Shown piece by piece: positions 3,006 to 22,435 of a DNA stretch of 32,631 nt (positions within the stretch are counted from its first letter, which is position 1; the number at the start of each line of letters is the position of its first letter). The notes beneath the pieces are model-generated. The model worked only from the letters and a program-made list of their open reading frames with translations, was not told the origin of the DNA and did not search any database. This DNA is from a virus, in the IMG/VR virus record IMGVR_UViG_3300035698_009718, positions 1 to 32,631 of that record, one strand, 5' to 3'. The translations under genes and the position numbers were made by a program.

Positions 3006-3173
3006 ATGAATGAATCGACGAAAGACCCGTATCCGCTCCCAGTCCCAGTCGAAGGGGACTACGCGACGAACACCGTGACGTACAGATGCGAGGGCGGGAT
3101 ACGCAGAGTTTTTTCTACGCAAACTAACGAGGTGAAACGAGATGAGCGAACCGAACTGGATACGAATGAATGA
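3006..3173 (+). CDS. Small hypothetical protein (55 residues)
   Basis: ATG 3006 follows AGGAG (2992-2996) at about 9 nt spacing, a strong start signal. The 55-residue product (MNESTKDPYPLPVPVEGDYA...) is hydrophilic with a proline-rich beginning. The YRCEGGIRRVFS segment resembles a short beta-hairpin. The gene overlaps the next one by 32 nt in another frame. No family is recognised. The good SD and close packing make it more likely real than random. Confidence 0.5.
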   Translation: MNESTKDPYPLPVPVEGDYATNTVTYRCEGGIRRVFSTQTNEVKRDERTELDTNE

Positions 3174-3726
3174 GGACCTAATCGAGGATGTCTCAGTTTA
3201 TAAACGAGTTTACGTCGAAAAAGAGGTAAAGTTAGAATTTCCGGGCTCCCCAATCTTGCGTCCAACGGGAAAGTTTGTCGTGATGGGCGAACTCAAGTCC
3301 CGTCGTTCTGAGCTAGTGACTGATGCGATGATTGCAGGGGGCTTGTCCCACGAGGACGCGGTCACCATGATAGATAGTGTCGAGGAAGCAGGAGGGAGGC
3401 TATATTGGGAAGAGGTGCCCCTAAGACTTAATGACGACGGAATTACGGCAACATCAACAACTGGGGGATCTTTTACTGAAGGGATCGATCCAACGCATGA
3501 GATTAACAATGGTGACAGCTCGGCATTGCCGGACGAGGGAGCAGTGCCCAAGGTCGTTGTTGACGTGCTGCGTCTTATAGCGGAGCAGCTTCTCATTCTA
3601 TCTCGTGGCTACTGCGGCACCGACGGGCCTCACCCCGATACGGCGAGAAGGCGACTCCTTGCTTGCTGGAACCAGACGGATAAAGCACTACAGGACATTC
3701 AGGCTGCAAATACTACAGAGAGGTGA
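3142..3726 (+). CDS. Hypothetical protein, paralog A of the MSEPNWIR pair
   Basis: This 194-residue protein has the N-terminus MSEPNWIRMNEDLIEDVS and shares an arrangement with the next gene: the MSEPNWIR start, a Y(K/R)R(V/L)Y segment, LRPTGKF, a (D/E)DAV..(I/L)D.VE(E/D)A stretch and a later SALPD. The C-terminal part (about 135-194) is extra and predicted helical (VVVDVLRLIAEQLLIL). No catalytic motif, signal or membrane span is evident. The SD GAGGTG precedes ATG 3142. Homology with the neighbour extends into the ribosome-binding region at DNA level, which indicates tandem duplication. Confidence 0.6.
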   Translation: MSEPNWIRMNEDLIEDVSVYKRVYVEKEVKLEFPGSPILRPTGKFVVMGELKSRRSELVTDAMIAGGLSHEDAVTMIDSVEEAGGRLYWEEVPLRLNDDGITATSTTGGSFTEGIDPTHEINNGDSSALPDEGAVPKVVVDVLRLIAEQLLILSRGYCGTDGPHPDTARRRLLACWNQTDKALQDIQAANTTER

Positions 3727-3732
3727 ATCGAG

Positions 3733-4149
3733 ATGAGTGAACCGAACTGGATTCGGATTAAGGAGTATCAGATTGAGAATTTTTCGGCGTATAGGAGGTT
3801 GTACTTGAATGAGGAAATGAGGAGCGAAGCGTGTTCATCAACGACGACAGCTCACAAGCTCCGCCCCACAGGCAAATTTAGTCTGCTGGGTGTTCCTGTA
3901 GCCTTCCGAGGTGTGGTCACGATTGTCGAGGGCTTGTTGTATGACGACGCGGTTGCCCTGCTTGATAGGGTCGAGGACGCAGAAGGGGTGCCATTCTGGA
4001 ATGAAGCCGATGCCGCCAAGCGTAGAGACTCGGCATTGCCTGACGTGAAGAACCTGAACCCTGTCTCGGATAAGTGCACTGTCGGGGGACCCAGCGGGGC
4101 ACAGCCTGATGCTCCGAATTTAGACACGGGCTTCATCTCTCAGCCCTAA
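3733..4149 (+). CDS. Hypothetical protein, paralog B of the MSEPNWIR pair
   Basis: This 138-residue protein is paralogous to the upstream gene through about residue 95 (MSEPNWIR, YRRLYL, LRPTGKFSLLG, DDAVALLDRVEDAEG). It then diverges into a short proline- and glycine-containing tail lacking the helical C-terminus of copy A. The start lies 6 nt after the preceding stop with SD GAGGTGAATCGAG. Function is unknown. It directly precedes the large terminase gene. Confidence 0.6.
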   Translation: MSEPNWIRIKEYQIENFSAYRRLYLNEEMRSEACSSTTTAHKLRPTGKFSLLGVPVAFRGVVTIVEGLLYDDAVALLDRVEDAEGVPFWNEADAAKRRDSALPDVKNLNPVSDKCTVGGPSGAQPDAPNLDTGFISQP

Positions 4150-11551: not shown

Positions 11552-11621
11552 GACTTTCTATAAGGCGGAACCACTGCCTTTGTCGGCTTGCCGGCACAAA
11601 CTACAAGTATGGAGGTTTATT

Positions 11622-12368
11622 ATGGCTGTAACGAATGTAGGTAGCAGATGGAGACATGGTTTTCTTGAGTTTTTTGACACGGTAACAAATCGCGTTATTG
11701 ATGTGGAAGCTCCCGTGAAGAAATTTGACGACTTCTTGGGTCCGGCAATTGATAACACAAATGATTGGAACGTTTCTGTTGTCGGGGCTGGAGCGGCAAC
11801 GGCGGATGCCGGTTGGATGACTATTACAACCGCCGCCGGAGATGACGACGACGTAGAAGTTGCATCCGAGCTGACATTCAACGGGACGAATTATATCGTA
11901 CTCGAAGCGCGATTGCGCAATGATGACGTTGCCAATAGTGCTGTTTGTGTCGGGTTGGTTGATGCAATCGCTTATGCCGCTGACACGTTGGCGGTAACAT
12001 ACGACAGCGATGCGTTGGTCACGACCGCTACTGACGGGGCGTGCTTCTTCCACGACAAAGACACTACGGGCGACACTTGGAGAGCGGTGTGCGTTGATTC
12101 CGATACCAACGGCGCCATTCTTGACACGACGGTCACGCCGGTTAATTCCCAAATTCAGAACTTTCGAATTAGGATTAACGCTAGCGGCTTTTGCGACTTC
12201 TGGTTTTCAACGGGCACGGCGGCGTTGGAGCATCTTGGCGAAGACATTCTTATTGGTGTTACGCCGGGCGTGTCTCTGTGCGCTTATGTCGGGTATATGA
12301 CGAGAGAAACCGCTGCAAACACGTGTGATGTAGACTTCATGCGTGTATGGGGTGGCAAGATCGATTGA
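11622..12368 (+). CDS. Lectin-like (concanavalin A-type) head surface protein, copy 1
   Basis: This 248-residue, beta-rich protein begins MAVTNVGSRWRHGFLEFFDT, continues KKFDDFLG and ends CDVDFMRVWGG. The layout of FDDFLG, an internal ARLRNDD stretch, CFFHD, a RIRINASGFCDFWF strand and a closing DVDFMRVWG recalls concanavalin-like jelly-roll proteins often encoded beside phage capsid genes. A role as a head surface or sugar-binding decoration protein is inference. ATG 11622 is preferred over an upstream in-frame start because GGAGG lies just ahead of it. The second copy follows directly, about 85% identical by manual alignment. A terminator-like hairpin follows. Confidence 0.65.
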   Translation: MAVTNVGSRWRHGFLEFFDTVTNRVIDVEAPVKKFDDFLGPAIDNTNDWNVSVVGAGAATADAGWMTITTAAGDDDDVEVASELTFNGTNYIVLEARLRNDDVANSAVCVGLVDAIAYAADTLAVTYDSDALVTTATDGACFFHDKDTTGDTWRAVCVDSDTNGAILDTTVTPVNSQIQNFRIRINASGFCDFWFSTGTAALEHLGEDILIGVTPGVSLCAYVGYMTRETAANTCDVDFMRVWGGKID

Positions 12369-12377
12369 TCGGTTTAT

Positions 12378-12406
12378 GGGGGCGGCTCGTTTCGCCCTCA
12401 CTTTTT
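12378..12406 (+). terminator. Intrinsic terminator-like hairpin after lectin-like copy 1
   Basis: GGGGGCG (12378-12384) pairs with CGCCCTC (12393-12399), including one G-T pair, with an 8-nt loop. It is followed by AC and five Ts (12402-12406). The stem plus short T-run is compatible with partial Rho-independent termination between the two duplicated genes. Confidence 0.65.
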
Positions 12407-12469
12407 ATAAGGCGGAACCACTGCCTTTGTCAGCTTGGCTGGCACAAACTACAAGTATGGAGGTTTATT

Positions 12470-13216
12470 ATGGCTGTAACGAATGTAGGTAGCAGATGGA
12501 GACATGGTTTTCTTGAGTTTTTTGACACGGTAACAAACCGTGTTATTGATGCGAAAGCTCCCGTGACGAAGTTCGACGATTTCTTGGGGCTGGCGATTGA
12601 TAGCACAAATGATTGGAACGTAGCCGCAGTCAATGGTGGGACGGCAACGGCGGATGCCGGTTGGATGATTTTGACAAGTGGTGCCGCAAATGACGACAAT
12701 GTAGAAGTCGCGTCCGAGCTGACGTTCAACGGGACTAATTCTATAGTATTTGAAGCGCGATTGCGCAATGATGACGTTGCCAATAGCGCTGTTTGTGTCG
12801 GATTAGTTGATGCAATCACCTATGGCGCTGACCAGTTGGCGATAAGTTATGCTGGTGATACGTTGGTCACAAACGCGAGTGACGGAGCTTGTTTCTTCCA
12901 TGATACAGACACTACGACCGACACTTGGAGAGCGGTGTGCGTTGATTCCGATACCAACGGCGCCATTCTTGACACGACGGTCACGCCGGTTAATTCCCAA
13001 ATTCAGAACTTTCGAATTAGGATTAACGCTAGTGGCTTTTGCGACTTCTGGTTTTCAACGGGCACGGCGGCGTTGGAGCATCTTGGCGAAGACATTCTTA
13101 TTGGCGTAACGCCGGGTACATCGCTGTGTGCTTATGTCGGGTATATCACGAGAGAAGGCTTTGTAAACACGTGTGATGTAGATTTCATGCGTGTATGGGG
13201 TGGCAGGATCGACTGA
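12470..13216 (+). CDS. Lectin-like (concanavalin A-type) head surface protein, copy 2
   Basis: This 248-residue paralog of the preceding gene has the same start (MAVTNVGSRW) and end (CDVDFMRVWGG) and an identical SD. Residues about 147-212 are identical in both copies. Differences cluster at about 28-33, 52-75 and 116-138, as expected for surface loops or strands under different selection. Like copy 1, it is probably a virion surface beta-sandwich that may bind glycans. A strong terminator follows at 13240. Confidence 0.65.
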   Translation: MAVTNVGSRWRHGFLEFFDTVTNRVIDAKAPVTKFDDFLGLAIDSTNDWNVAAVNGGTATADAGWMILTSGAANDDNVEVASELTFNGTNSIVFEARLRNDDVANSAVCVGLVDAITYGADQLAISYAGDTLVTNASDGACFFHDTDTTTDTWRAVCVDSDTNGAILDTTVTPVNSQIQNFRIRINASGFCDFWFSTGTAALEHLGEDILIGVTPGTSLCAYVGYITREGFVNTCDVDFMRVWGGRID

Positions 13217-14944: not shown

Positions 14945-15799
14945 ATGGCATTAAACCTATATGCTACGCTTACTGACATAAAAGACTCCAATCGACTAGA
15001 CATCAGCGCGACAACCAATGACGATTTGCTTGAGGCATTACTGGAAAATGCCAGCCGTGTAATTGATGGCGATACGCATAGATTCTTTTATACAAAAACA
15101 GAAACAAAACACATGAACACGAGTCGTGGAAATGATTATCTGCTATTGCCAGAAGACTTGATAAGCATCGACGCCGACGGACTCACGGTAGACACGGAGA
15201 GTGACGGCACGTATGACGGGCAGACTTGGACTGAGGCTACAGACTTTTGGACATATCCCTATGAAGAGTATCCGAAATACAAGCTGCTAACAACAGGGTT
15301 CGGCAGTTATTCGTTTGCGAGTGAACAACGACGCGATGTGCAAATTGTCGGCATTTGGGGATATGGGGACGGGACAAGCGATCCGTGGAGCGCGACAATT
15401 ATAACGGGCACGGTGGGAGATGGCACAACGACAACGCTTGACCTAAGTCTGAGTGGCACTGTTAAGCGAGGGCACACAATCAAGTGTGGTACGGAACAGA
15501 TGTACGTCTCGGCGATCGATGAGACAAGCGGAGTAGACACGGCGACCGTTACTCGTGGTGTAAATGGAACGACGGCGGCAGCCCAGGCAGCGGCGGTGGT
15601 ATCAATTGCTCAGTATCCGTCACAGATCAAGCAAGCCTGCCTACATTTTGCCACGCGATTCTGGACAGAGCTTGCCGATACAGGTCAGATGCAAAGCGAG
15701 CGAATAGGCAGCTATTCATATTCGAAGTTTCAGCCCTCTAATTTGCGAGAGCAAGATTTGAGACTTGTGGCAATATTCAGAAGGATACCAGTCGTATGA
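14945..15799 (+). CDS. Head-tail connector protein (gp6-like adaptor), enlarged
   Basis: This 284-residue neck protein has the gp6-like start: YATLTDIKDSNRLD, then a NDDLLEALLENASRVIDGDTHR helix pair (written here in parts), followed by FFYTKTETKHM. The C-terminal helix (YPSQIKQACLHFATRFW) closes the fold. Between them lies an extra beta-rich stretch (about 155-215, TGTVGDGTTTTLDLSLSGT...) that makes it longer than usual adaptors. It would form a ring below the portal. It overlaps the next gene by 4 nt (ATGA). Confidence 0.8.
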   Translation: MALNLYATLTDIKDSNRLDISATTNDDLLEALLENASRVIDGDTHRFFYTKTETKHMNTSRGNDYLLLPEDLISIDADGLTVDTESDGTYDGQTWTEATDFWTYPYEEYPKYKLLTTGFGSYSFASEQRRDVQIVGIWGYGDGTSDPWSATIITGTVGDGTTTTLDLSLSGTVKRGHTIKCGTEQMYVSAIDETSGVDTATVTRGVNGTTAAAQAAAVVSIAQYPSQIKQACLHFATRFWTELADTGQMQSERIGSYSYSKFQPSNLREQDLRLVAIFRRIPVV

Positions 15800-16107
15800 G
15801 CATTCAGTCGTTCTTCAAAGATTCGTTGGTGTTTAGGCAACATCGCGGGAGAGATGCGCATAATGAGCCATTGACCCCTGAATTCACGGATACTGCAATA
15901 AAGGGACGGGCTATTGAGCAACAACGAAATGTGACGACTGTAGAAGGTGAAGAAGATGTTTCGACGATGACTATTTGGATATCTAATCGCACCGTCACGA
16001 ATGAGGATAAGATCACATACGAAGGCGTGGATTATTCGGTGCTAACAATGTTTCGTCCAAAGGATCGTTCAGGGAAAGTCCACCATTTAGAATTGAATTG
16101 TCAATAA
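15796..16107 (+). CDS. Head closure / head-tail joining protein (Hc1-like)
   Basis: This 103-residue protein fits SPP1 gp16-like head closure proteins: an N-terminal FFKDSLVFRQHRGRDAHNEP, a central TAIKGRAIEQQRNVTTVEG barrel strand, then VTNEDKITYEGVDYSVLTM and a terminal VHHLELNCQ. The small beta-barrel plugs the connector after packaging. It starts inside the connector stop. In related phages the next gene is a gp10-like neck protein. Here that gene is displaced to 21887 by the 5.8-kb sugar-modification cassette. Confidence 0.8.
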   Translation: MSIQSFFKDSLVFRQHRGRDAHNEPLTPEFTDTAIKGRAIEQQRNVTTVEGEEDVSTMTIWISNRTVTNEDKITYEGVDYSVLTMFRPKDRSGKVHHLELNCQ

Positions 16108-16142: not shown

Positions 16143-17570
16143 ATGGGGAAAGCTATTGTAGGCAGAAAAATTAGAAGGGGGCGCCCAGCACTACAATGCC
16201 CAAGCAGGAACTTTCCACCAAACGTAATGAAACATTCGGCTGCGCAAAGCAGACAGGGGCTTCGTGTCAAAAAGGGCAAAGGTGGCGGCGCGAATGGTCG
16301 AATAATTAGGAATAATCGTAAATTGTACGAGGTGTTACCCAATAATGCGTGGAAGGGAAGGCGCTGTTTCGTGGTTGGCGGGGGGCCTAGTTTGAGAGGT
16401 TTCGACTGGAGCCTCTTAAAAGGTGAGCTCGTAATAGTCATTAACAGAGCTTTTGAGATGTTGCCAACGGCGGCAATAAACTTCAGTATGGATTTGCGAT
16501 ACTGGAAATGGTTAGAGATCGGCATGGTTGGGCAGACCGACGAAGAGCGAACAGTCGTTAGGAAGGAATGGTTAGACTTTGGTGGGTTAAAAGTTTGGTT
16601 AAACACTAACCATTTTCCTCTTCCAGAAGAAATCTTTACGCTTCAGGCAAGCGGAGGATGGGAATTTTCAGAGGACATGGCTAAGGGGCTTGGAACCGGG
16701 TGCAATAGCGGTTTCAGTGGGACAAATCTCGCGGCGTGCTTAGGCGCAAGTCCAATATATCTTCTTGGGTTCGACATGAAAGGTAGCAGCGATGGGCAGC
16801 AAGCATGGTTTCATACAGGCTACCCACCTATCGCAATGCAGAAAGATACCGTATACAATAGATTCCGTGACTTTTTTGAGAAGATAGCCCCTAAGTTTCA
16901 GGATAGAATAATCAATCTAACCCCGGGAAGCGCCCTGAAATGTTTCAAGACTGAGAGGTTTGAGAATTTGCCAAAAATCAGAAGACCCGTTGTGGTGACA
17001 TATTACACAAAAGACACCCCATACGAAACGTTGGTCAGCAAATGGAAGGAGTCAATTCACAAATTCGGCATGGAATATGATATTGTGGGGGTTCCAAGCA
17101 AAGGGTCTTGGCAGGAAAATACTCGGTATAAGGCGACCTTTATTGAGGAAATGCTCAACAAACACAAACGACCAATTCTGTTTATCGATGTAGATGGAGA
17201 AATGTGCAAATACCCGAACTTGCTTGATGATTTGGACGCTGATGTTGCCGTGCATTTTAGAGATTATGCACAGTTCCCTTCTCATTCCAGAAAAGAGGGC
17301 AAGGAGCTATTGTCTGGGACGATATTTTTTAACGATACAGAAATCGCCAGAGAACTTATTAGTGCGTGGAAACTGCAAAACAAAAACAACACTACGGCGT
17401 GGGAGCAGAGAAACCTTCAGGTGGCACTTGAACGAGCAATGAAAGGCAAAGAGATCGATGTGCTGGAGCTTCCGGCAACCTATTGCCAGATTTTTGACCT
17501 GATGGCGGCAGCTGGCGAACCAGTGATCGAGCATTTTCAGGCAAGCAGAAGATTCAGGAATTTAAGATGA
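16143..17570 (+). CDS. Two-domain sugar-modification protein (MptE/DUF115-like plus glycosyltransferase-like)
   Basis: This 475-residue protein has a basic N-terminal extension (1-60), then a domain with RRCFVVGGGPSLRGFDWSLL (nucleotide-binding GGGPS at 79-83), ending near SPIYLLGFDMKG. This is the pattern of MptE/DUF115-like proteins found in surface-glycan and flagellin-glycosylation loci. A second domain (about 278-475) with FIDVDGEM (D349-x-D351) looks like a nucleotide-diphospho-sugar transferase. It probably transfers a sugar in the cytoplasm; donor and acceptor are unknown. SD GGAG is very close to ATG 16143, and the in-frame ATG at 16227 is an alternative. It is the first gene of the inserted cassette and overlaps the sulfotransferase by 4 nt. 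Confidence 0.65.
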   Translation: MGKAIVGRKIRRGRPALQCPSRNFPPNVMKHSAAQSRQGLRVKKGKGGGANGRIIRNNRKLYEVLPNNAWKGRRCFVVGGGPSLRGFDWSLLKGELVIVINRAFEMLPTAAINFSMDLRYWKWLEIGMVGQTDEERTVVRKEWLDFGGLKVWLNTNHFPLPEEIFTLQASGGWEFSEDMAKGLGTGCNSGFSGTNLAACLGASPIYLLGFDMKGSSDGQQAWFHTGYPPIAMQKDTVYNRFRDFFEKIAPKFQDRIINLTPGSALKCFKTERFENLPKIRRPVVVTYYTKDTPYETLVSKWKESIHKFGMEYDIVGVPSKGSWQENTRYKATFIEEMLNKHKRPILFIDVDGEMCKYPNLLDDLDADVAVHFRDYAQFPSHSRKEGKELLSGTIFFNDTEIARELISAWKLQNKNNTTAWEQRNLQVALERAMKGKEIDVLELPATYCQIFDLMAAAGEPVIEHFQASRRFRNLR

Positions 17571-18157
17571 CGACCAAAAAACTCTTTATCATAGGATTGC
17601 GAAGAAGCGGCACATCAATTTTGCGCAAGCTTTTGTTGCAACACCCGGAAGTGATGGGCATCGAGTTTGAGCCGCATCCATTATGGTTTGCCGTAGACAT
17701 GAATCATTTCAATCGATTTCGAGGTGATCCGTATGTGCAGCAAACATTAGACGTGTTTCTGAATCGGTGCCCTGAACGAAAGTGGTATGGGGCAAAGTTT
17801 GCTCTTAATCCCGGGGTAAAGGCATTAGAGTGGGTATGGTTGGCAAAGATATTTGCGGACGCCAAGTTTATTTTCATCGTTCGCGATCTAACACAGACAT
17901 GGGCAAGCTATTACAGGCAGGACAAAAGTTCTGTTCGGGGCGTTATAGATGAAGAGGCATACAAGGTGCTGGGGCGGGGTCTAATCGGGGGGTTTCAAGA
18001 GTTTTGTAAGCGAGCTCCTTCTCGTGGTGTCGTTGTTAATTATTCACGGCTTGTTGAAAATGCGGATTCAGAGTTGACTAATATCTGGTCATTGTTGGGG
18101 ATCGAGACTCACTTGGGCTTTAATGCTCAGATGAAAATTCCGAAACACTGGGGGTAA
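17567..18157 (+). CDS. Sulfotransferase family protein
   Basis: This 196-residue P-loop protein transfers sulfate from PAPS to a hydroxyl or amine. The N-terminal 5'-phosphosulfate loop is GLRRSGTSIL (10-19) directly after a hydrophobic strand (LFIIGL). The 3'-phosphate site follows the FIFIVRD strand with R106 and S114 (RDLTQTWAS). The protein is short compared with typical sulfotransferases, but both PAPS motifs are present. The acceptor is unknown; the neighbouring glycosyltransferases suggest a sugar. It starts inside the previous stop (ATGA). Confidence 0.8.
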   Translation: MTTKKLFIIGLRRSGTSILRKLLLQHPEVMGIEFEPHPLWFAVDMNHFNRFRGDPYVQQTLDVFLNRCPERKWYGAKFALNPGVKALEWVWLAKIFADAKFIFIVRDLTQTWASYYRQDKSSVRGVIDEEAYKVLGRGLIGGFQEFCKRAPSRGVVVNYSRLVENADSELTNIWSLLGIETHLGFNAQMKIPKHWG

Positions 18158-18166
18158 GGCAGACAG

Positions 18167-18835
18167 ATGAAGCACATCACCATAGTCATACCAACGAGAA
18201 ATAGATGGAACAAGCTATGCGCGACGCTCGATAGCATAGTTTTGGCGGAAGAGTCTATACGTGTTCTTATCGTTTGCGACGCGGATAAAGCGACCTATGA
18301 CAGGGCGTCAAGAATATTTCGGGATGTGCCAAATATCGAGATATTTTTAGCTGCTGGCGAGAAGCCTCGCGGAGCGACATATTGCCGAAACTTAGTGACA
18401 GGTAAAGCGGAAGACGGAGTGTTGTATGCTACGGATGACATTGTATTTAAGGAAGATACTATAGCCGTTGCGATGGCAACATTCAACGAGAATTTTGATG
18501 ATGACGATGGCGTGGTGGGGTTCAAGCAGGTGCCGTGCAACTATCATTTAACGGGGGTGGCGTTGGTTGGGAAGACGTTTCTTGAGCGATACCCCGGCAA
18601 ACGGTTGTTCTTTCCTGGTTACTTCCATTTTGCGTGTCAAGAAGTTCATTGGTTAGCCGAGAAGTTGGATAAATTCATCCATGAACCGAACGCGATTGTA
18701 ACTCATAAAACACCGAAATTTTTCCCTGAAGAGCATGACCAAACATGGAACGATGCTAGGACACATCAGGTACAGGACAAGGCGCTGAGACTGCAACGGA
18801 TCAAAGAAAGTAAAATATGGGGGGATCAAGAATGA
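18167..18835 (+). CDS. Glycosyltransferase, family 2-like
   Basis: This 222-residue GT-A fold enzyme opens with ITIVIPTRNRWNKL, the standard nucleotide-sugar binding start, followed by RVLIVCDADKATYD. The metal-binding motif is TDD at 89-91 (YATDDIVF), in place of a canonical DxD. The acceptor part includes FFPGYFHFACQEVHW. It would transfer a sugar from a nucleotide donor in the cytoplasm. It ends overlapping the small membrane protein gene (ATGA). Donor and product cannot be inferred from sequence. Confidence 0.78.
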   Translation: MKHITIVIPTRNRWNKLCATLDSIVLAEESIRVLIVCDADKATYDRASRIFRDVPNIEIFLAAGEKPRGATYCRNLVTGKAEDGVLYATDDIVFKEDTIAVAMATFNENFDDDDGVVGFKQVPCNYHLTGVALVGKTFLERYPGKRLFFPGYFHFACQEVHWLAEKLDKFIHEPNAIVTHKTPKFFPEEHDQTWNDARTHQVQDKALRLQRIKESKIWGDQE

Positions 18836-19008
18836 TACTGGTACCCGTGATCATATTCTTCGTTGTTGTTGCCTTATGGCTTAGCTCGCTTGAGCGTAGA
18901 TTCAAAGGAAACGAGCACTCAATTATGCTCGCCAACGAGAAGATTAATGAAACAATACAAATCTATGAGATTCGCAAGCTCGTTGACGAAAAGAAGAGAG
19001 CGCAATGA
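18832..19008 (+). CDS. Small single-span membrane protein in the sugar cassette
   Basis: This 58-residue protein has an N-terminal membrane span (MILVPVIIFFVVVALWLSSL) followed by a charged, helical tail (NEKINETIQIYEIRKLVDEK). ATG 18832 overlaps the previous stop, and GGGGGG lies upstream; an in-frame ATG at 18817 would add five residues. It is sandwiched by ATGA overlaps between two glycosyltransferases, so it is co-translated with them. A membrane-anchoring or scaffolding role for the enzymes is possible but unproven. Confidence 0.6.
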   Translation: MILVPVIIFFVVVALWLSSLERRFKGNEHSIMLANEKINETIQIYEIRKLVDEKKRAQ

Positions 19009-19661
19009 CAATCTCCCTATTCATGCCTGTCTACAAACGGTTCGCGTATGTTCCTGATATATTACAGGCATGGCAATCACAAGTTGACGAAATAGTGGTA
19101 TGGGATGATTCATGTGATTTGTCCAGAGAGTATCCTCAAGGCGTGACTGTGATACGATCAACGCGACCGATGGGAAGCCACATAAAATTCAAGGTGGCGC
19201 AGCTCTTAGAGAACGATGTGGCATTGATTGTAGATGATGATATTGTGCCGCATTGCGGGCTTGTGGATGCGCTTATGGCACATTATAGGCCAGACCGCGT
19301 GCTTACCGTATTCGGGCGGAAGTTAAACGCCGCCGGCTATAAAAATAAGAGCTGCCCCCTGCAACGTTCTGACAAGATTGCGGAACTTACAAAGGTTGAT
19401 TGGGGAGGGCGGCTACTCATCGGCGCGCGAGAACGTTTTATGCTCGACGTTTCTGGGTGTCTTGACACGGTGCTTGACGATTTGTATTGGAGCTTTCAAC
19501 TGAAAGTTAAATGCCCCGATGCACAGATATTCGTTGTGCCGACAGATAAATGGCACAATTCAGATGACGCAAATGATAAGCACTCATTATCAAAAACTCC
19601 AAATTATTGGGTGAAGCGAGATGAGTATGTTCGAGCAAATTATAGTAAAATATTTGCATAG
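19005..19661 (+). CDS. Glycosyltransferase (GT-A fold, family 2-like)
   Basis: This 218-residue enzyme opens with ISLFMPVYKRFAYVP, then VDEIVVWDDS and the metal-binding DDD at 77-79 (ALIVDDDIVPHCG). A second acidic region (DTVLDDLYWSFQLKV) and the late TDKWHNSDD segment complete the active site, resembling family 2 and exostosin-type (GT64) folds. It likely adds a sugar in the same pathway as the enzyme at 18167, from which it differs clearly in sequence. The ATGA overlap with the small membrane protein gene indicates coupled translation. Confidence 0.75.
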   Translation: MTISLFMPVYKRFAYVPDILQAWQSQVDEIVVWDDSCDLSREYPQGVTVIRSTRPMGSHIKFKVAQLLENDVALIVDDDIVPHCGLVDALMAHYRPDRVLTVFGRKLNAAGYKNKSCPLQRSDKIAELTKVDWGGRLLIGARERFMLDVSGCLDTVLDDLYWSFQLKVKCPDAQIFVVPTDKWHNSDDANDKHSLSKTPNYWVKRDEYVRANYSKIFA

Positions 19662-19672
19662 GAGCGAGCGTT

Positions 19673-21481
19673 ATGGAGGCTGAGGAATATTATAAAGAGC
19701 ATTGGGAGCCGCATGAAATTTGGACGCATCTTGACAGGCCAAAACACATGGCGCGGTTTGAGCACTGCGTTTCATTTTTGAATGGAAAACAATTCGCGGA
19801 TGTTGGATGCGCGAGTGGGCACTCTACGCAGATAATGAAGGGGATAAAAGACGGAGAATGGCGCGGTTTTGATTTTACAAAATCCGGCATTGACCAAGCG
19901 AAAATCAATTTCCCTGATATGCCGTTTGAATATTTGTCAAATAGCAAGGGCATGGAAGCGGTGAAGACGGAGTTTGATGGGGTTGTGTGTTCTGAGGTGC
20001 TTGAGCATGTTCCAGAGGACAAACAATTCATAAATTCTCTGTGGACGATGGTAAAGCCGGGCGGCACAATGGTGATTACCACCCCAAACAGATATGTGAA
20101 CGACCCGGGGCACTTAAGGGTATACACCATAGATATGATAGAAGAATTATACGAGGGGATCCCGCTCGCGATTCATAAAGAGGGTATTTTTTGGTACATT
20201 GTTTCGCAGAAAGTGGTGAAGCAAGAAGCAGAGAAGCAGAAAGTTGTGAAGCAGGAAGCGGGCGCAATGGATAGCAATGTGGCAAAAGAAGTGTTGCTTG
20301 AGGTTAAAGATATTCTCGACGGCGCGGAAGTTCCCTTTTTCCTAATTTGCGGCACATGTTTGGGAGCGCATAGGGATAAGGCGTTTATAAAAGGGGACGA
20401 CGACATTGATTTGGGCGTGTTGATAGAGGATCTGCACCCGGCGGCAACCACATTAGCCGATACATTTACGCAAGCGGGATTCTCTGCAAGAATTATTTGT
20501 CGCCCTTTTGAATTTGCACGTGTACTCAAATTGAAGAAGCGTGGCATTGGCATAGACGTGGCGGGATGGTGTAAGACGGGTAATGTGCGCTGGGTGTCGT
20601 CAACCATTAGAGACTATTGTTTGGTTCACCCGACAAAGCTATTTGAAGGGATGAAGCGTATCAGATTTTGTGGCAAATATTTTCATGTTCCTACGCCAGT
20701 TTCAGAATATCTAACCGCCGAATATGGAGATTGGGAAACCCCAAAGCCCAATATGCACATTAGCACGTCACGAGTGTATGATTTCAGGAAGGCACACAAC
20801 ATCGGTGGTTATGGAATTATGCACTGGCGCAAAACGAAGCGCAAACTTTATAACACGAAGGGGGCGAATATGTTAGAGCGAGATGTCCCATCTGAAAAAC
20901 TGGATGAGATTTATGGCGAGCAAGATTACTACGGCTATTTGAATAGCGAACCGTTTATGGAATGCTTCAAAGCGATTGCGACGCAAATCAAACAACTCCC
21001 GGATGTAGCGTCTATCTTGGACGTGGGATGTGGTCGGGGAATGTTGCCGAAATTTCTTCGACCGGAGCATAGATACTTGGGATTCGATGGGTCTGCAACA
21101 GCGATCGAGTCGGCGAAGAAGAGCTGGGCAGGGAGAGAGAACACGGACTTTGAGGTTGGTAGGATTGAAAACTTCCTATGTGAAAAACAGATTATCGACC
21201 CCGAAGCTTCTTTTGACCTAATCTTGTTCGGTGGCGTTCTTCATTGCCTGATTAAACAAGAGAATTGGGTCGAGTTTATCAAGATGTATTTGAATGCGTT
21301 TAACGCAGATCATTTTGTAATATACGATTTGTCGATAGCCGATACAAGCATTCTAAAAGAACACTTTGTGCTCTTGCACGAGCAGGCTCTTGATATTAAA
21401 ATCCCGAAGGTTCAGGAAGTCAAAAAGCATCGTATGTTAGAGGTCTACAAGATCAAGGGCTGTACGGTAGGAGAAGAGTGA
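19673..21481 (+). CDS. Three-domain fusion: methyltransferase - LicD-like - methyltransferase
   Basis: This 602-residue protein has an N-terminal class I SAM methyltransferase (about 35-178; motif I FADVGCASGH, CSEVLEHVPED, KPGGTMVITTP). A short 10-residue repeat linker (179-198) follows. Next comes a LicD-type phospho-ligand (nucleotidyl)transferase domain (199-395; PFFLICGTCLGAHRD, GDDDIDLGV with D242-D246), then a second SAM methyltransferase (400-602; ILDVGCGRGM). LicD enzymes attach phosphocholine or similar phospho-ligands to sugars; methyltransferases could cap them. Internal ATGs at 20267 (M199) and 20870 (M400, after AAGGGGG) coincide with domain boundaries. SD AGGAG precedes ATG 19673. 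The order is unusual. Confidence 0.8.
   Translation: MEAEEYYKEHWEPHEIWTHLDRPKHMARFEHCVSFLNGKQFADVGCASGHSTQIMKGIKDGEWRGFDFTKSGIDQAKINFPDMPFEYLSNSKGMEAVKTEFDGVVCSEVLEHVPEDKQFINSLWTMVKPGGTMVITTPNRYVNDPGHLRVYTIDMIEELYEGIPLAIHKEGIFWYIVSQKVVKQEAEKQKVVKQEAGAMDSNVAKEVLLEVKDILDGAEVPFFLICGTCLGAHRDKAFIKGDDDIDLGVLIEDLHPAATTLADTFTQAGFSARIICRPFEFARVLKLKKRGIGIDVAGWCKTGNVRWVSSTIRDYCLVHPTKLFEGMKRIRFCGKYFHVPTPVSEYLTAEYGDWETPKPNMHISTSRVYDFRKAHNIGGYGIMHWRKTKRKLYNTKGANMLERDVPSEKLDEIYGEQDYYGYLNSEPFMECFKAIATQIKQLPDVASILDVGCGRGMLPKFLRPEHRYLGFDGSATAIESAKKSWAGRENTDFEVGRIENFLCEKQIIDPEASFDLILFGGVLHCLIKQENWVEFIKMYLNAFNADHFVIYDLSIADTSILKEHFVLLHEQALDIKIPKVQEVKKHRMLEVYKIKGCTVGEE
20206..20259 (+). repeat. Direct repeat encoding the inter-domain linker
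   Basis: Two 24-nt copies start 30 nt apart (20206-20229 and 20236-20259) with three differences. They encode two tandem 10-residue units QKVVKQEAEK and QKVVKQEAGA. The repeat lies exactly at the join between the first methyltransferase and the LicD-like domain, as expected for a linker grown by slippage or recombination at a gene fusion point. Confidence 0.8.
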
Positions 21482-21921
21482 TGGAAAGCAGAGGCAAAAC
21501 TATCGTTTATATACCCGGATGCTGGGAGATGCTGCACATCGGGCATTTGAATATGCTAACCCGCGCAAAGGCGCTTGGCGACATCCTGATAGTTGGAGTC
21601 GAAGGCGATGCGTTGATAGAGGGCGAAAAAGGACATGCTCCGATAATCCCGTGCGACCAGAGGGCGCGAATGCTCGAAGCGCTGGAATGTGTAGACATCG
21701 CTATTCCATTTGATTCTTTTGATTACGCGGAGATTGTTAAACAGGTGGGCGCGGAGATATTTGTGATTGGCTCACAACACGAAGGGGATCGCTTCGATAA
21801 AGTACGATGCACAGATTGCAAAGTGGTTCAACTGCCGTACACAGACGGCATTTCGGACACAACGATTAAGGAGCGTATTTGCCACAATGCCAACAATGGT
21901 GCTGGACACAACAGAGCATGA
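21481..21921 (+). CDS. Cytidylyltransferase-like protein (TagD / glycerol-3-phosphate cytidylyltransferase type)
   Basis: This 146-residue nucleotidyltransferase activates a small phosphorylated compound with CTP. The HIGH motif is seen in MLHIGHLNML, the R-x-x-M-L region in QRARMLEALECVD, and the closing ISDTTIKERI matches the family's ISTTxIK signature. Substrate specificity (glycerol-3-phosphate, a heptose or another phospho-ligand) cannot be read. Beside a LicD-like domain, a CDP-linked ligand is attractive. ATG 21481 overlaps the previous stop (TGATG) with AGGAGAAG upstream; a GTG three bases earlier is possible. It is the last gene of the cassette. Confidence 0.82.
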   Translation: MESRGKTIVYIPGCWEMLHIGHLNMLTRAKALGDILIVGVEGDALIEGEKGHAPIIPCDQRARMLEALECVDIAIPFDSFDYAEIVKQVGAEIFVIGSQHEGDRFDKVRCTDCKVVQLPYTDGISDTTIKERICHNANNGAGHNRA

Positions 21922-22435
21922 TAAGAGTATGCGGTATTTGCTGAAACACGCCATGCCGGATAGTGTGAAAGAGGGCTTGGCGTCGGCTGGCAGAGAGCTA
22001 ATGAAAGACGCTCTTGAAAAGACCCCTACAGTCCCGATGTTTCACACGGGATTTACAAAGACGGGGAGAAAACGAAAAAAACGGCGGCACGGCAGATTGG
22101 TGAGAGGCGGATGGCTTCGTGGTAGCGGGTCTGTATTCGTTGACAACAAGTTCATTGCGAAATCTCCAAGAGTCAATAATTTGGGAACCCCAGCAATTTC
22201 TCATAGAGGCCGGATACCAAAAGATTCACATGTTGTCGTTGTCGGATTTAATACGAGATATGCCACGCGAGCGCATGAGCTACCGAGTTCTTCCGATTTT
22301 TCAACACCGGGTTCGGGTCCTAAGTTTTTGGAGTCCAAAGTTTCTGCATATAGAAAAAAATATGTGGGGATGGTCGCGCATTCGCTTCAGAGCGGTATGG
22401 CGACATCAATTCTTATAGGTAGGCATAGGGAATAA
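21887..22435 (+). CDS. HK97 gp10-like neck / tail completion protein
   Basis: This 182-residue protein fits gp10-like proteins: a helical start (YLLKHAMPDSVKEGLASAGREL), a basic middle, then the family's second half VVVVGFNTRYATRAHELPSS and GPKFLESKVSAYRKKYVG. It acts at the head-tail interface. The frame is open back to 21767, inside the cytidylyltransferase gene. The ATG at 21887 (or 21896) is chosen because AAGGAG lies upstream, at 13 nt or more. It overlaps the cassette's last gene by 35 nt, so the insertion did not disrupt it. Confidence 0.75.
   Translation: MPTMVLDTTEHDKSMRYLLKHAMPDSVKEGLASAGRELMKDALEKTPTVPMFHTGFTKTGRKRKKRRHGRLVRGGWLRGSGSVFVDNKFIAKSPRVNNLGTPAISHRGRIPKDSHVVVVGFNTRYATRAHELPSSSDFSTPGSGPKFLESKVSAYRKKYVGMVAHSLQSGMATSILIGRHRE

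Follow-up and report, generated by a model that had tools for sequence, protein, structure and literature searches.

RESULTS

The window analysed here is a linear stretch of viral DNA of 32.6 kb (IMG/VR record IMGVR_UViG_3300035698_009718, positions 1-32,631). Its plus strand carries siphovirus genes for portal, protease, major capsid protein (MCP), adaptor, head closure, gp10-like, DUF3168-like, tail protein, tape measure and tail. A 5.8-kb cassette (16143-21921) is inserted in the head-tail connector operon, between the head-closure and gp10-like genes; all cassette and flanking genes are on the plus strand. Specifically, the head-closure/head-tail connector gene (15796-16107; phrog_3881, 4e-5) is followed by a protein combining MptE-like/sialyltransferase-like and nucleotide-sugar transferase similarity (16143-17570; phrog_4603, 5e-23; PF01973 and PF03407 weak), a sulfotransferase (17567-18157; PF13469, 1e-15) and two GT2-type glycosyltransferases, one at 18167-18835 (PF00535, 1e-4) with homologs in loci L051, L056 and L136, the other at 19005-19661 with a weak match (PF00535, 5e-3). 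Then come the ORF 19673-21481, which is the subject of this study, and a cytidylyltransferase with a HIGH motif (21478-21921; CTP_transf_like, 1.6e-15), the likely maker of the CDP donor for LicD. The right flank is an HK97-gp10-like tail-completion gene (21899-22435, start uncertain) that has homologs in L051, L056, L058 and L136. With genes for glycosyltransferases and modifying enzymes placed within the structural operon, the window has the gene content of a virion-glycosylation cassette, and the ORF belongs to a glycan-decoration cassette among late structural genes. The cassette is absent at the connector-tail position of the MCP relatives L008, L010, L012 and L026, and connector, gp10 and DUF3168-type genes are adjacent there. 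A different insert, with two MptE-like proteins and one GT2-like protein, fills the connector-tail gap of another MCP relative (L021:9643-12862); this suggests that the spot often takes up glycan genes. Elsewhere in the window, two nearly identical tandem ORFs downstream of the MCP gene (11580-13216, both with LQVWRFIMAVTNVGSRWRHGFLEFFDTVTNRVID) have arisen by recent duplication and possibly encode a virion decoration protein, and a tandem duplication is also seen upstream of the terminase, where the adjacent ORFs 3142-3726 and 3733-4149 start with MSEPNWIRMNEDLIED and MSEPNWIRIKEYQIEN.

The ORF 19673-21481 has 602 codons in a single frame and an ordinary start and Shine-Dalgarno (SD) sequence, TAGGAGCGA. 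The first-pass annotation of this DNA had read it as two SAM methyltransferases around a LicD-like domain, and Pfam bears out the coordinates as well as the three domains, in the order MT1-LicD-MT2. Both MT1 (residues 1-178, 19673-20206) and MT2 (residues 400-602, 20870-21481) are class I SAM methyltransferases that occur elsewhere as separate orthologs. Matches above the Pfam cut-off span residues 38-142 of the protein for MT1 (Methyltransf_31/11/23) and residues 448-540 for MT2 (Methyltransf_25/12), and SAM-binding motif I is present in both (FADVGCASGHS and ILDVGCGRGML). The best single-domain matches of MT1 are UbiG-type O-methyltransferases. The domain between them (about residues 199-376, 20267-20800) is a nucleotidyltransferase-fold phosphotransferase of the LicD family. 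The PF04991 match begins at about residue 221 (E 1e-8) and clears the curated cut-off of 22.6 bits, with 35.6 when the full protein is scanned and 39.5 when the domain is scanned by itself. The active-site motif GTxLGxxR...DDDID is present (GTCLGAHRDKAFIKGDDDID), and G29, T30, L32, G33, R36, D44, D46 and D48 (domain numbering) are invariant across 13 sequences. The whole LicD domain matches FKRP by profile (7e-14) with DxDxD kept, and it also matches the model of the cholinephosphotransferase Mf1.

MT1 and LicD are joined by a linker (20207-20266) made of two 10-residue repeats, 179-QKVVKQEAEK-QKVVKQEAGA-198, identical at 8 of 10 residues. At the DNA level, Tandem Repeats Finder detects a period of 15 nt over 20206-20258. 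This linker takes the place of the stop of separate MT1 genes, whose products end no more than about 9 residues past the conserved core. The AlphaFold2 model (mean pLDDT 83, pTM 0.44) has three domains, of which MT1 (pLDDT about 90) and LicD are confident and MT2 is fair, and disordered linkers with pLDDT below 50 at residues 188-196 and 379-397. The model was built from an 18-row alignment in which parts of three stand-alone MT2 rows were misplaced, so its MT2 part is less certain; the low pTM means that relative domain positions are not determined by the model. A Foldseek search with the model returned methyltransferase folds and FKRP. The predicted product is thus three folded enzymes on flexible linkers. 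The structure prediction, which the first-pass annotation had proposed as a check, therefore agrees with its placing of the ATGs at 20267 (M199) and 20870 (M400) at domain boundaries, and the duplication of the linker at the first joint also stands.

Searching IMG/VR with a LicD profile yielded 80 loci, and a subsequent MT2 profile search gave L136 (IMGVR_UViG_3300025736_002212). Orthologs of MT1 are separate genes in L051, L056, L058 and L136 (42-47% identity), as are those of MT2 in L052, L053 and L135 (38-40% identity). In L058 an MT1 gene, 44% identical over the alignment, overlaps LicD by ATGGTTAA, and the cytidylyltransferase follows. L052, L053 and L135 have LicD, then MT2, then the cytidylyltransferase, and their genes overlap by 8, 26 and 8 nt, respectively. 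L051 and L056 have the same type of cassette with LicD, cytidylyltransferase and MT1. L136 is half fused: a separate MT1 gene is followed by one 383-aa LicD-MT2 protein, about 37% identical to that of the window, then by the cytidylyltransferase and by head-tail connector, gp10-like, DUF3168-like and tape-measure genes. It therefore shares with the window the order MT1, LicD, MT2, cytidylyltransferase and the siphovirus neighbourhood, and differs in having MT1 as a gene of its own. On a quick LicD tree, which gives moderate support for this placement and weak support for deep branches, the nearest row to the window is the LicD of L136. The window's cassette lacks one methyltransferase, characterised by a VDVGA-type motif, that L136 (4434-5198), L051 (5573-6382) and L056 (959-1717) have in addition; that of L136 was confirmed as a member of the FkbM family. 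Single-protein searches of phage records, viral contigs and prokaryote genomes, and the profile searches, did not find a second full MT1-LicD-MT2 protein, and the full fusion thus rests on one metagenomic contig.

M199 and M400 are two of the 17 in-frame Met codons of the ORF. M199 (20267-20269) stands at the natural start position of separate LicD genes and aligns with the LicD starts of L032 (MDKKIALENL), L057 (MNAKLAKDAL) and L136 (MSRPPLNPVIAKGIL). Its anti-SD energy of -4.8 kcal/mol is matched by 21% of internal ATGs; the SD is therefore not above chance, and we rejected it as a real start signal. M400 (20870-20872) aligns residue for residue with the MT2 starts of L052 and L135 (MLNLAQTPEELNEIHGPQDYYDYL in L052 versus M400-LERDVPSEKLDEIYGEQDYYGYL). 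The SD-like sequence that the first-pass annotation had noticed before it is GAAGGGGG (20857-20864), at a spacing of 5 nt and with an anti-SD energy of -10.8 kcal/mol. Among 162 in-frame internal ATGs just one other reaches this strength, and 34 of the 35 gene starts are weaker, only the start at 1284 being equally strong; two of these starts (near 21478 and 21899) were set approximately, which leaves the rank of M400 unaffected. In L136, the one fused homolog available for comparison, the M400 position is a Leu codon, TTG, with no SD, so the SD-bearing start, and with it internal initiation, is not conserved. Stop codons in other frames overlap both ATGs. We rejected these as proof of ancestral gene overlap, since 42% of internal ATGs have one. 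The stop at the first joint matches the MT1 stop of L058 (NG*, same place and frame), which is only suggestive.

Counts of neighbours in the 80 viral loci, which rest on local iterative profiles, show that the partners of LicD recur. Within 5 kb of LicD there is a cytidylyltransferase in 55, a glycosyltransferase in 57 and a methyltransferase in 38 of the 80; the cytidylyltransferase is adjacent or fused to LicD in 36 and a methyltransferase in 17. The methyltransferases that repeatedly adjoin LicD or are fused to it come from at least three subfamilies. Pfam confirms an MT-LicD fusion in L078 and a LicD-MT fusion in L119, as well as the methyltransferases of L076 and L100, where MT-LicD-MT is found as three adjacent genes. 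LicD-cytidylyltransferase fusions occur in L112 (Pfam-confirmed) and L071 (local profile). Since the same partners recur next to LicD, fusions join enzymes already working side by side. Several other arrangements were seen. Proteins of about 600-865 aa combining GT2 and LicD (L085:2050-4617, L091:6110-8710, L126:6173-8770, L097, L117, L120, L122) have the order GT-LicD-GT where complete and, where tape-measure genes are seen, lie a short way upstream of them. The stretch from LicD to the last glycosyltransferase is weakly cytidylyltransferase-like in local profiles; Pfam did not confirm such a domain, and it was not counted. Another packaging of the enzymes, according to local profiles, is a cytidylyltransferase-MT fusion of about 395-399 aa in L037, L044, L046, L047, L094, L095, L096 and L105, with a stand-alone LicD directly before it and several glycosyltransferases after it. 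In L057 (5507-8378) and L121 (4160-7220) LicD lies close downstream of the MCP gene, with the cytidylyltransferase next in L057, a position that hints at a virion target.

The cytidylyltransferase of the window is nearest in the PDB to ethanolamine-phosphate cytidylyltransferase (2e-19), then to glycerol-3-P cytidylyltransferase (2e-16). Its top NCBIfam models, heptose adenylyltransferase and glycerol-3-P cytidylyltransferase, are both below cut-off. We take the enzyme to be of the CTP_transf_like (HIGH) type and not of the LicC type. In the window, which is a fragment, no LicA- or LicB-like gene for a choline kinase or permease was seen among the ORFs read or the Pfam-scanned cassette genes; the gene set thus differs from the LicA, LicB, LicC, LicD set of the Lic-1 phosphocholine pathway.

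DISCUSSION

The comparison of loci indicates that ORF 19673-21481 very probably arose by fusion of three genes. Unfused orthologs are adjacent in the same order in L058, L052, L053 and L135 and have starts at the joints, and L136 is half fused; separate, half-fused and fully fused states thus exist around one gene order. The in-frame fusion of three genes proposed in the first-pass annotation is therefore upheld, including the expectation that homologs exist as separate genes starting at these sites, which holds for LicD at M199 and, to the residue, for MT2 of L052 and L135 at M400. In the ancestor, MT1, LicD and MT2 would have been separate genes, tightly spaced or overlapping, with the cytidylyltransferase next. 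The LicD-MT2 junction, seen also in L136, would be either the earlier step or an independent one, and the repetitive linker would have brought in MT1. Such a fusion would hold successive enzymes in one place and in equal amounts. It is clear that the protein is made of known parts, rather than being a new kind of system.

Because the full fusion is known from a single metagenomic contig, it is important to consider an assembly or sequencing artefact, in which two spurious indels would have merged the genes: one between LicD and MT2, where the G5 run at 20860-20864 is a candidate site, and a second at the MT1 joint. A TAG that overlaps the M400 ATG would indeed end LicD in one other frame, but an overlapping out-of-frame stop is as common as noted above. 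LicD and MT2 are fused alike in L136, which comes from another metagenome, MT1 and LicD are linked by a repeat that stays in frame, and two independent errors would be required. We regard an artefact as very improbable. The two internal ATGs are best read, from the alignments, as relic gene starts. For M400 both the exact L052/L135 start and the strong SD agree with this; at M199 only the alignment with the LicD start does so, the SD being ordinary. It has also been proposed that one mRNA gives separate domains besides the fusion. The strength of the SD makes dual products plausible for MT2 only, with M400 yielding a free MT2 of 203 aa, and hence MT2 in excess, next to the 602-aa fusion. The ATG is conserved in the separate MT2 genes of L052 and L135. 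On the other hand, the TTG without SD in L136 implies that a free MT2 is not generally needed, the SD could have survived from a recent fusion, GGG, at 27%, is no rarity among Gly codons here, and chance alone gives such strength to about 1% of internal ATGs. Internal initiation is for these reasons rather doubtful, and relic starts remain the preferred reading. Note that L136 bears on the earlier proposal in two ways: a homolog of the same order without the M400 ATG weakens the case for a start in use, but the same homolog confirms the fusion history.

LicD-type enzymes use a CDP donor, from which they pass a phosphorylated alcohol to a glycan (PMC10434233). In the cassette, the cytidylyltransferase would activate a phospho-compound X-P as CDP-X, LicD would transfer phospho-X to a glycan that the cassette glycosyltransferases have built, and MT1 and MT2 would methylate X or the glycan. 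We consider phospho-X transfer plus methylation reasonably likely. With LicD, FKRP and fukutin, the latter being CDP-ribitol transferases, the window protein has in common the GTxLGxxR...DxDxD core, the domain profile match and the CDP-donor logic through the neighbouring cytidylyltransferase. It differs from them in that LicD is flanked by two methyltransferases in one chain. The glycan would most likely be attached to a virion protein. The late structural-gene placement and the parallel with phage Corndog make the virion a better candidate than the host envelope, and we give the virion as target of the cassette about an even chance. Corndog has an O-methyltransferase, two glycosyltransferases and a GlcNAc transferase between its portal and protease genes (PMC4351075), and mycobacteriophage capsid and tail tube carry glycans, according to work cited in PMC12619734. 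In these sets, as in the window, glycosyltransferase and methyltransferase genes are inserted in the structural operon. The window adds a sulfotransferase, LicD and the cytidylyltransferase, has MT-LicD-MT as one protein, and carries its insert in the head-closure/tail-completion gap instead of the portal/protease gap of Corndog. Taken together, the fusion and the decoration of a virion glycan are, in our view, probably the best explanation of the locus.

Two other functions have to be weighed against this one. MT1 and MT2 might make choline by methylating phospho-ethanolamine or CDP-ethanolamine, with LicD transferring phosphocholine without a choline supply. The nearest PDB relative of the cytidylyltransferase, the match of LicD to the Mf1 model and the two-domain phosphoethanolamine N-methyltransferases 5wp5, 4krg and 4kri in the Foldseek top list all point this way. 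However, these structural matches have an rmsd of about 22 A and reflect the two methyltransferase domains per chain, MT1 alone is closest to O-methyltransferases as described above, and three unrelated methyltransferase subfamilies found with phage LicD fit varied substrates. We therefore consider choline synthesis unlikely. The cassette might alternatively act on the infected cell, altering its teichoic acid, LPS or capsule so as to block superinfection, and leave the virion unmodified. LicD is best known for placing phosphocholine on teichoic acid or LPS (PMC10434233), and a host-envelope role has been proposed for the LicD of Flandersviridae (PMC8008677). In these phages LicD also lies beside a nucleotidyltransferase, but it is in the replication module, is unfused, has an IspD-family partner and no methyltransferase is reported (PMC8008677). 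In the window, L051, L056, L058 and L136 the cassette is in the late head-tail connector operon, and expression is expected to coincide with virion assembly. Modification of the host surface is less probable than decoration of the virion.

The series from separate genes through a half fusion to a full fusion is unusually complete for a natural one, with a relic start still readable, and it shows how overlapping phage genes turn into multi-domain enzymes. The LicD-cytidylyltransferase-methyltransferase module, of which we found no description in the literature searched, recurs in many uncultured phages. More speculatively, and with a small chance of being right as a whole, HIGH-type cytidylyltransferase, LicD, methyltransferases and glycosyltransferases may form a widespread tailed-phage module that puts a methylated phospho-group on the phages' own virions and whose parts have become fused time and again; the fusion described here would then also give free MT2, through an internal start that has been preserved. 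Phospho-substituted methylated glycans, if present on virions, would bear on phage adsorption, on immune recognition of phages and on phage glyco-enzyme tools.
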